Source: Candidatus Berkelbacteria bacterium
Lineage (GTDB): Bacteria > Patescibacteriota > UBA1384 > XYA2-FULL-43-10 > 1-14-0-10-43-13
Assembly (NCBI GenBank): GCA_026397135.1
Contig: JAPLVL010000028.1
Span: forward strand, 1-41,390
DNA: 41,390 bases
Direction: 5' to 3'
The translations under genes and the position numbers were made by a program. Under the pieces are notes generated by a model that was not told the origin of the DNA, ran no database searches, and saw only the letters and a program-made list of their open reading frames with translations. Below, piece after piece: positions 202-3,082 of this stretch. Every line of letters begins with the position of its first letter. The stretch's first letter is position 1.

Positions 202-1350
202 ATGAAATATCTGAAGGAAAAAATTAACCGTCTATGTATCTATTTTGCAGTCGCTGCACTTCTTTTTGCATCGCTAAACCCAGAACTTGCCCTTGCAAAT
301 GTTAGCGCCGGAACCTTCACTGGCTCTGGACTCAACAACAATCTTATTAGCAACACGGATTTCCTGGCCTATGACTCAATGACAGTGGACCAAATCCAAT
401 CGTTTCTTGCTTCGCATAACTCTGTGCTAACTAATTATTCTGATGGTGGCCGATCTGCAGCCCAGATCATTCTCGATGCTTCGTATGGTCGCTACGATGC
501 AGCCGGAACCTGGAATGGAATTGTAATAAATGAATCGACTCATACTGTAAGCCCCAAAGTATTACTGGTCGTACTACAAAAGGAACAAAGTTTGATTACC
601 CAAAGTAGTGTTGGTGACCGAGCTATTTATGCCGCAATGGGTTGTTATTGCTACAACGGTGTCTCTGGTGACAACAACGGCAATGGTTGCAAGGATTCGA
701 CAGAAGGATTCTCGAAACAGGTCGAAAACGGTGCCTGGCTTTTGCGATATAGCTATGAAAGAGCTCAAGGCAAAGGATTAGACTACCAAGTCGGTCAAGA
801 ATTTACAACTTCCGATGGATACAATGTCAAACTTCTGAATGCCGCAACCGCCTCGCTCTACCGCTACACACCTTATGTTTTCAATGGAAATTTTAATTTC
901 TACAACTATTATAATACCTGGTTCGTGGCACATCCTGACACAAATACAAACGACCAAACTCCTTTCACCCTCAAGACATACGTCAACACACAGAAACTTT
1001 CCGGATACAAAACTTCTGACGCCAAAGCTTATCTCGGAGGTCAGTTGTTAGCCGATACTGGCTCAACTACCTGGGAATTGAATCTGACAAGTCTCGCCTT
1101 TGGCACGAATAATTATTCTGTTACCTACAAATCTGGGGATGGTACAACTCTGGGCAGCAAATCGATTGTGATCGTGGTCCAGAAGCCTGGTGATATTGAT
1201 GGCAGCGGAACAGTCGGCCTTCAGGACCTCTCAGTTTTGGCTGGATATTGGGGACAAACTAGTCCAGAGGAGCCACTCTCCGACTTAAATGGTGATCATG
1301 TTGTCGATATTCAAGATTTGTCGATATTGGCCGGGTATTGGGGGCAATAA
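202..1350 (+). CDS. Secreted protein: signal peptide, conserved (possibly lysozyme-like) extracellular domain, C-terminal dockerin-type repeats
   Basis: Hydrophobic N-terminal signal (LCIYFAVAALLFASLNPELALA); motif VLLVVLQKEQSLIT and ATASLYRYTPYV...FYNYYNTWF resemble a secreted domain of actinobacterial/patescibacterial surface proteins; C-terminus GDIDGSGTVGLQDLSVLAGYWGQ / SDLNGDHVVDIQDLSILAGYWGQ is a duplicated Ca-binding dockerin-like motif. Confidence 0.8.
   Translation: MKYLKEKINRLCIYFAVAALLFASLNPELALANVSAGTFTGSGLNNNLISNTDFLAYDSMTVDQIQSFLASHNSVLTNYSDGGRSAAQIILDASYGRYDAAGTWNGIVINESTHTVSPKVLLVVLQKEQSLITQSSVGDRAIYAAMGCYCYNGVSGDNNGNGCKDSTEGFSKQVENGAWLLRYSYERAQGKGLDYQVGQEFTTSDGYNVKLLNAATASLYRYTPYVFNGNFNFYNYYNTWFVAHPDTNTNDQTPFTLKTYVNTQKLSGYKTSDAKAYLGGQLLADTGSTTWELNLTSLAFGTNNYSVTYKSGDGTTLGSKSIVIVVQKPGDIDGSGTVGLQDLSVLAGYWGQTSPEEPLSDLNGDHVVDIQDLSILAGYWGQ
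1189..1347 (+). other. Dockerin type I-like domain (two 22-24 aa repeats)
   Basis: Two DxDxSG/DxNGD...D Ca-loop repeats each ending in AGYWGQ. Confidence 0.8.
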
Positions 1351-1353
1351 AAT

Positions 1354-1416
1354 ATCAGGATTAAGAATTAAGGATTAAGCAGTAAGCAATAAGCAGGGAG
1401 CAATAAGTGAGAAGGG
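1354..1416 (+). repeat. Heptanucleotide array, 9 in-phase units
   Basis: atcagga ttaagaa ttaagga ttaagca gtaagca ataagca gggagca ataagtg agaaggg. Confidence 0.8.
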
Positions 1417-1418
1417 AT

Positions 1419-2684
1419 ATGATGAAAAAAAATTTGTTAATTTGTCTTCTGACAGTCTTTGCAGTGTTAATTATTCCCAAGGTCACCTTGGCTGCCGGAA
1501 TTTCAGTTTCCGGAGGAGCGCTCAAGTATGCCGGCGACGAAAGCAATGTTACTATCACCGCATCGGGTGCAACTTTTAACGCATTTTCAGGAACGATCAG
1601 CGCTTCAGGATCAGTCAAAGTAACTGCTTGCACACCTGGCGATGCGCTTTGGGTGACGAAGCCATCGGGGACGGGCAGTTTTGCTGGCGCACTCACGAGC
1701 GCAACTACATCATTTAGAATCGCAACGTGTCATATCAAGGCATCGACCACCGGTAGTGGCTCGATTTCTGTTTCCGGGGTTCAACTTGCTAACAAGGGTC
1801 CGATTGTTGGAACAGACAGTGGCAGTCAATCGTTTTCGCCAATTCGCAAGCCTACCCCTCCAGGAGCAATTACAGTGACTTCAACTTCTCACCCAGACCA
1901 AAATACTTCCTACGAGGTGACCACTATCGTTCTTTCTTGGGACAAACCAACCGGAGTCACTAATTATTCATATCTTCTCGATCAGACGGCTGGCACAATC
2001 CCACCCGCAACTGCGACGAACGCAAACACAACTGCAAGTTATGACAATGAAGCTGTTGGGACTTATTATTTCCACATTCGGGCGCTAAACGGAGACGGTT
2101 GGGGTGACGCGACTCATTTCAAAATTACAATCAAGGAACCTGATCCCAAAATTCACGACGACATCGCCAAACCACAAAACATCACGATTACAAAGAATAC
2201 TGATTTTAAAAACGATATTGAGAGTGGAACCGTGACAGGTTTCACAATTTCTGGTCTTACTCTGCCAAATTATATGGCAAATATTATCTTCAGCCCAACT
2301 ATCACTCCGCCGGAGGGCAAATTGTTGTCAGTCAAGGCTGATGCGAACGGTAGTTTCAGTTTCATTGCAGATTTTCCTTTCAAAGCAGGTAATTATTCCC
2401 TCACGATCCAGGGCCAGGACAACAAAACCCTGACGCCTATTTCCGACCCGATACACTTCGAAATTTCACAGAGATTGGGTGGTGCGATAAACATTCTGAC
2501 AGCTGCCGACACGAATACCCCGATCATCCCTGCCAAAAAATGGTTTGAAAAAATCAACTGGATGTACGTGACCGCTGGATTGACTGGGCTCGTCTTGATC
2601 CTAGCTATTCTATTTGTTATTGTCATCTTCAAGAATAAAAAGGCCTGGAAAAAAATATTCTCAGAACTAAGGATCCAGAAGTAA
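1419..2684 (+). CDS. Membrane-anchored cohesin-like domain protein (signal peptide, cohesin-like, Fn3-like, C-terminal TM)
   Basis: ORF track begins at GTG 1407, but ATGs at 1419/1422 follow an agaagg SD-like stretch. N-terminal signal; ISVSGGALKYAGDESNVTITASGATFNAFSGTISASGSVKV...GSISVSGVQLANKGP resembles a cohesin fold; APG...TSYEVTTIVLSWDKPTGVTNYSYLLDQ is Fn3-like; C-terminal TM WMYVTAGLTGLVLILAILFVIVIF with basic tail. Confidence 0.75.
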   Translation: MMKKNLLICLLTVFAVLIIPKVTLAAGISVSGGALKYAGDESNVTITASGATFNAFSGTISASGSVKVTACTPGDALWVTKPSGTGSFAGALTSATTSFRIATCHIKASTTGSGSISVSGVQLANKGPIVGTDSGSQSFSPIRKPTPPGAITVTSTSHPDQNTSYEVTTIVLSWDKPTGVTNYSYLLDQTAGTIPPATATNANTTASYDNEAVGTYYFHIRALNGDGWGDATHFKITIKEPDPKIHDDIAKPQNITITKNTDFKNDIESGTVTGFTISGLTLPNYMANIIFSPTITPPEGKLLSVKADANGSFSFIADFPFKAGNYSLTIQGQDNKTLTPISDPIHFEISQRLGGAINILTAADTNTPIIPAKKWFEKINWMYVTAGLTGLVLILAILFVIVIFKNKKAWKKIFSELRIQK

Positions 2685-2704: not shown

Positions 2705-3082
2705 ATGAATACTAGTATGAAAAGTTTTCAAGACATAATTGCTTGGCAAAAATCACATGAATTTGTTCTCAAGATTTATGAATTAACCAAACTTTTCCCA
2801 AAAAACGAGGAATTTTGTCTAACAAACCAAATCCGGCGAGCAGCTATTTCTGTCCCCTCGAATATTGCTGAAGGATTCAAACGCAAGTCAACCAAAGACA
2901 GCCTCCACTTTTACAATATTGCCGAGGGTTCTCTAGAAGAAGCAAAGTATCAATTGCTATTGGCTCGAGATCTGGGGTATATTGAATCTCTAATATACGA
3001 AAAAGTTTGTGGCATAGCAGCAGAGTCAAGCAAGCTTCTGTGCAGATGGATTAAATCGCAGAGTGCTCGACTTAATTCTTAA
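2705..3082 (+). CDS. Four-helix bundle protein (S23 / bIVP / Avd-like family)
   Basis: SFQDIIAWQKSHEFVLKIYELTKLFPKNEEFCLTNQIRRAAISVPSNIAEGFKRKS matches the family signature (F.dl.aw..a..l....Y.lt..fP..E...l..QirraavSipsNIAEG). SD taggagg upstream. Confidence 0.9.
   Translation: MNTSMKSFQDIIAWQKSHEFVLKIYELTKLFPKNEEFCLTNQIRRAAISVPSNIAEGFKRKSTKDSLHFYNIAEGSLEEAKYQLLLARDLGYIESLIYEKVCGIAAESSKLLCRWIKSQSARLNS

Follow-up and report, generated by a model that had tools for sequence, protein, structure and literature searches.

The P1-P2 locus

The window, by which we mean the whole stretch of 41,390 nucleotides that was analysed, is one contig (C49) of a 1.14 Mb genome that is 98% complete, and the named relatives in which the same gene pair occurs are Candidatus Berkelbacteria. 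Two adjacent genes on the + strand, P1 and P2 (Table 1), lie where an earlier sequence-only reading of this DNA had placed them, each in a different reading frame. Downstream of P2 follow, in order, an ORF of the four-helix-bundle type, a flippase gene and a long polysaccharide gene cluster. The first of these products, encoded at 2705-3082 between P2 and the flippase, is a four-helix-bundle protein of the 23S rRNA-intervening-sequence type (PF05635, 8e-38). In several relatives, a small TPR-repeat membrane protein is encoded 5' of P1; the start of the window contig cuts off the position where it would stand. We considered a misbinned contig and rejected this explanation: the pair is kept in relatives, and its GC content (0.44-0.46) is slightly above the 0.41 of the rest of the window. 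A search for the P1 region in plasmids and phages gave zero matches.

Table 1. Coordinates of the P1-P2 features in the window
Feature	Position	Strand	Basis
P1, secreted protein, 382 aa	202..1350	+	Signal peptide (~residues 1-32), N-domain, Ig-like region, dockerin; orthologues found
P1 N-domain, residues 48-241, putative lysozyme/lytic-transglycosylase-like	343..924	+	47-sequence alignment; invariant Glu128 at 583-585
P1 Ig-like linker, residues ~255-326	964..1179	+	Weak Big_3_5 match
P1 dockerin, two F-hand repeats	1186..1347	+	PF00404 genome scan, PDB dockerins, invariant Ca2+-ligand positions
P1 dockerin repeat 1, DIDGSGTVGLQDLSVLAGYWGQ	1192..1257	+	
P1 dockerin repeat 2, DLNGDHVVDIQDLSILAGYWGQ	1282..1347	+	
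P2, predicted membrane-anchored cohesin receptor, ~420 aa	1419..2684	+	ORF open from GTG 1407; start probably ATG 1419 or 1422 rather than GTG 1407
P2 predicted cohesin domain, residues 29-149 (numbered from GTG 1407)	1491..1853	+	hhalign chain; AlphaFold model of relative L036 compared with PDB cohesins
P2 Fn3 domain	1839..2129	+	FN3con E 8e-4; weak Pfam fn3/Y_Y_Y
P2 membrane-proximal Ig-like domain	2169..2462	+	Weak Big_13 match; conserved block in A1
P2 C-terminal transmembrane helix, then basic tail	2553..2652	+	Kyte-Doolittle maximum 3.02

Judged by its sequence, the P1 C-terminus is a two-repeat dockerin; its F-hand repeats are nearly identical and type I-like. Pfam Dockerin_1 (PF00404) scored 24.0 bits in the genome scan against a cut-off of 22.9, and 19.6 bits, slightly under that cut-off, by hmmscan. 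The best PDB sequence match was the solved cellulosomal dockerin 2y3n_B (E 5e-4), and six orthologues all share D331, D342, D361, N363, D365 and D372, which occupy the Ca2+-ligand positions. These data bear out the duplicated, dockerin-like Ca-loop end that the sequence-only reading had described.

The same reading had also called P1 lysozyme-like, and here the resemblance stops at the level of motifs. The N-domain, of about 195 residues, belongs to an unnamed family with members in 69 of 192 Patescibacteria genomes; for this domain Pfam, NCBIfam and PDB sequences returned no meaningful match and a PDB profile search came back empty. In the alignment of 47 sequences, one Glu, one Gln and a Y-x-Y-T-P motif are fully or almost fully conserved. 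The hhalign score against GH23 (3%) was below significance, and in the register of this non-significant alignment the invariant Glu coincides with the catalytic Glu of GH23. Three peptidoglycan-binding domains are present in one N-domain homologue. An AlphaFold model of the window P1, built from four sequences, was too poor for judging the fold (mean pLDDT 48.7) and was discarded. We put the case for a peptidoglycan-cutting domain at roughly even odds, and its target, whether the cell's own wall or that of a neighbour, is among the least certain parts of our explanation.

Within the N-domain family (window 343-924 and A6), fusions occur to dockerins, subtilase, NBR1-type Ig or peptidoglycan-binding domains. 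The Pfam glucosaminidase PF01832 was absent from searches across the order, and SLT proteins, separate from P1, occur in all 11 of its genomes.

The predicted P2 cohesin and its dock

The signal peptide and C-terminal transmembrane segment that had been proposed for P2 agree with its hydrophobic N-terminus and with a hydropathy maximum of 3.0, and the Fn3-like region proposed alongside them is real though weak. Pfam, on the other hand, is blind to the cohesin-like region: neither P2 nor its own genome gave a direct match to the Pfam cohesin (PF00963).

Support for this part of the earlier description came from profile chaining and from the predicted fold of an orthologue. By hhalign, the P2 N-terminal domain matched cohesin-like paralogues from its own genome and one relative (96%, E 1e-9), and these paralogues in turn matched Patescibacteria cohesins at 98-99% (E down to 2e-16). 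The reference cohesins were six sequences from Doudnabacteria, Liptonbacteria and Colwellbacteria, three of them above the Pfam cohesin cut-off. As a control, Fn3 and Ig segments of the query proteins scored below 1% against the cohesins. The P2 domain scored 16% against Fn3, but over 10 columns at the overlapping segment boundary. A sequence-only PDB search with the cohesin-domain profiles returned antibody-like chance matches only. Identification of the P2 domain as a cohesin is therefore supported through intermediates, because the direct comparison with Patescibacteria cohesins gave just 26% (the three Pfam-positive sequences) to 83% (all six).

Because P1 and P2 of the window are out of frame with each other, co-folding was carried out on a relative (L036) in which both genes share one frame. 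The stretch from dockerin to cohesin was folded as a single chain with the stops as residues, a computational device that makes no claim of readthrough. In the modelled parts, L036 and the window are 66-73% identical. AlphaFold returned a pLDDT of ~95 for the cohesin and ~88 for the dockerin, a disordered linker and a pTM of 0.71. By a simple calculation, this pTM calls for a dockerin position relative to the cohesin that is accurate to ~2-3 Å, while an unplaced dockerin would give ~0.5. The value is consistent with a defined dockerin-cohesin dock, tempered by the fact that such complexes are known to AlphaFold, which may dock any pair of this kind. The best PDB matches of the model were a Clostridium perfringens interaction module and cohesins (TMt 0.5-0.65). 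We thus have a predicted jelly-roll fold for the P2 cohesin, modelled in the L036 orthologue alone.

Coupled presence of the P1 dockerin and P2

The P1 dockerin and P2 are gained and lost in a coupled fashion. Within the order, the two genes are adjacent in G001, G003, G004, G005, G006 and G010, with P2 of G003 split across two frames. Class-wide, every one of the 15 P2 orthologues that are full-length or nearly so lies directly downstream of a gene encoding an N-domain and a dockerin. Where an N-domain gene carries a dockerin, P2 comes next (8/8); where it lacks one, P2 never does (0/40; Fisher p 3e-9, uncorrected for shared ancestry, with four of the 40 loci ending at a contig or stretch end and one, in G059, followed by another cohesin-like protein). 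In G009, FG-GAP repeats replace the dockerin of the P1 homologue, which adjoins the flippase, and P2 is absent at that locus. The N-domain has strongly diverged in G003, G004 and G006, yet the dockerin and P2 are retained. Synteny in related genomes, which the sequence-only reading had named as a check, therefore speaks for the pair, which several families of the class share.

One possibility is that adjacency reflects nothing more than a shared envelope locus; the P1 repeats would then be only a C-terminal module stabilised by Ca2+, and the P2 domain would bind something else, for example a surface polysaccharide. In the window and several relatives the pair does lie within, or next to, a polysaccharide and flippase locus, and P1-P2 binding is something that we infer; however, in G004, G005 and G006 the pair persists beside other genes (helicase, glycosyltransferases). 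A shared locus also accounts poorly for the way in which the dockerin predicts P2 among N-domain proteins, or for unrelated dockerin genes that adjoin cohesin genes too. We consider this explanation very unlikely.

Unrelated dockerin-cohesin gene pairs recur, both in this genome and elsewhere in the phylum. On contig C45 (L032:4349-13076), the gene for a secreted 2459-aa GLUG-repeat dockerin protein is directly followed by that for a 440-aa cohesin-like protein with a C-terminal membrane anchor, a second pair unrelated to P1-P2. A third cohesin-like membrane protein, on C20 (L033:3518-5577), adjoins a sortase gene and is without a dockerin neighbour. On C60 (L031:2799-7224), one open frame encodes a subtilase and another a C-terminal part that bears a dockerin. 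Counting P1 and P2, the genome has a minimum of three dockerin proteins and three cohesin-like proteins. The term "minimal pair" that had been applied to P1 and P2 thus fits the two-gene unit but not the genome, where at least two more of each kind, dockerin proteins and cohesin-like membrane proteins, are encoded.

The C60 layout resembles one gene split by a frameshift, and a second large subtilase comes next. Elsewhere, contig C13 of G009 (L034:1076-6994) carries a cluster of two cohesin-like proteins, a dockerin protein and a WxL-interacting-like protein, together with a 668-aa protein that combines Ig domains with a C-terminal ATP-synthase subunit C-like hairpin. A second type of operon, at seven loci of other Patescibacteria, encodes an Ig-like dockerin protein and, after it, two or three cohesins that have membrane segments.

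This multiplicity allows for a true cohesin-dockerin system in which P1 of the same cell is not the main partner of P2: P2 would also or instead take the C45 GLUG giant, the C60 subtilase or dockerins of other cells, and P1 would use other cohesins. Exchange between cells would have a parallel in ANME-SRB consortia, where both partners express cohesins and dockerins (PMC10553843). Several observations argue against such an arrangement. The dockerin helix residues differ between C45 and C60 (DFAALLTNWG, DFVLLLFNWG) and P1 (DLSVLAGYWG), the C45 dockerin has a cohesin neighbour of its own, and the P1 dockerin and P2 co-occur class-wide. We regard it as unlikely.

At the level of the phylum, Pfam found dockerins in 105 of 287 Patescibacteria genomes, cohesins in 77 and both in 52 (odds ratio 6.2; like the genome counts, uncorrected for shared ancestry). 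Among the matches listed, at least 17 of the 287 genomes have a cohesin gene at most 1.5 kb downstream of a dockerin gene on the same strand, and 34 of the 36 dockerin/cohesin pairs no more than 5 kb apart are on one strand; these pair counts are lower bounds, as they cover the listed matches and as P2-type cohesins are missed by Pfam. In G003, a subtilase-dockerin gene is followed by a cohesin-like transmembrane gene.

Could these genes be components of a cellulosome-like complex for polysaccharide degradation? The domain types are identical, and cohesins and dockerins of Candidatus Shapirobacterales have been interpreted in this way (PMC9123182). Here, however, each cohesin-like protein seen in the genome has one cohesin, a multi-cohesin scaffoldin was not seen, and the cargo consists of a putative lysozyme-like domain together with GLUG repeats and subtilases. 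A search of the genome for CBM_3 and, of the cellulase families, GH5 gave zero matches. These results accord with the earlier remark that nothing cellulosomal lies near the pair; from the single-cohesin proteins, the cargo and the CBM_3 and GH5 searches we rejected the cellulosome reading, which we hold to be barely credible.

A proposed display module and its relation to known systems

Our preferred reading, to which we assign a probability of about 0.8, is that P1 and P2 form an obligate, non-cellulosomal cohesin-dockerin display module, by which a putative peptidoglycan-active protein would be kept tethered to the surface of the very cell that makes it. The C-terminal helix of P2 would be seated in the cytoplasmic membrane, and its Fn3-Ig stalk would bear the single predicted cohesin as the outer tip. 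P1 would be exported, and its C-terminal dockerin would plug into this cohesin, presumably with Ca2+, like other dockerins. Docking would then hold the N-domain, probably lysozyme-like or lytic-transglycosylase-like, at the cell's own surface. The domain content, the gene order and the coupled presence or absence are observations, and the cohesin fold and the dock are predictions; we infer the binding of P1 to P2, its Ca2+ dependence, the surface location and the enzyme activity. The sequence-only reading had suggested that the membrane protein could anchor its dockerin-bearing neighbour, and the predicted cohesin fold, the conserved pair, the coupled gain and loss and the recurring unrelated pairs all argue in its favor.

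A broader proposal, which we advance tentatively and at a little under even odds, is that Patescibacteria possess a general plug-and-socket system of paired operons. Dockerin-tagged cargo (a wall enzyme, a subtilase, a giant adhesin) and membrane-anchored cohesins would build the outer surface and possibly the host-cell contact, and an undescribed enzyme family would be central to it. At issue is how bacteria of the Candidate Phyla Radiation (CPR), to which this one belongs, build and arm their surfaces. The conserved pairs provide a concrete, testable rule for which anchor holds which protein, and they flag the widespread, unnamed N-domain family as likely surface cargo. In the open-licence literature we found no description of the P1-P2 pair or of a rule that a dockerin goes with its anchor.

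Modules of Clostridium perfringens glycoside hydrolases serve enzyme assembly and are non-cellulosomal. They include the nearest folds to the modelled cohesin, 2o4e from a GH84 enzyme and the cohesin 2vo8 from a GH33 enzyme. These modules sit on the enzymes themselves, whereas the predicted P2 cohesin sits on a separate transmembrane anchor. The cellulosome anchoring scaffoldin SdbA (type II cohesin; PMC5817068) is similar in that a surface-attached cohesin takes a dockerin partner. It differs in having an SLH-domain anchor and in holding a scaffoldin of cellulases, while P2 has a transmembrane helix and would hold a single cargo encoded by its neighbor.

Non-cellulosomal cohesins and dockerins are already known, including those of ANME archaea and their bacterial partners (PMC9012536, PMC10553843), and they also occur in Omnitrophota (PMC10066038). 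The noncellulosomal modules of Peer et al. 2009, as cited in PMC9012536 and PMC10066038, are like P1 and P2 in being single cohesins or dockerins from organisms not thought to degrade cellulose. Compared with the modules as these citations present them, P1-P2 differs as a fixed two-gene unit in which a single cargo family goes with a single membrane anchor, kept across several families and coupled in presence and absence. The sets of ANME archaea and syntrophic SRB are likewise non-cellulolytic, with surface assembly and cell-cell contact implicated. They have other cargo and belong to another lineage, and the cited passages of PMC9012536 and PMC10553843 describe no obligate pair.

Within Patescibacteria, the open-licence papers mention dockerins and cohesins in passing and interpret them as related to glycans or a cellulosome (PMC9123182, PMC10633639). 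A possible parallel is SEML1_0315, an essential dockerin protein of Southlakia epibionticum (PMC10633639), in which a dockerin is again found on an envelope-associated patescibacterial protein. That paper names no cohesin partner (the word "cohesin" has 0 occurrences), whereas the candidate partner P2 is present here. The pairs suggest that a cohesin partner is worth seeking for the essential dockerin protein of this genetically tractable species.
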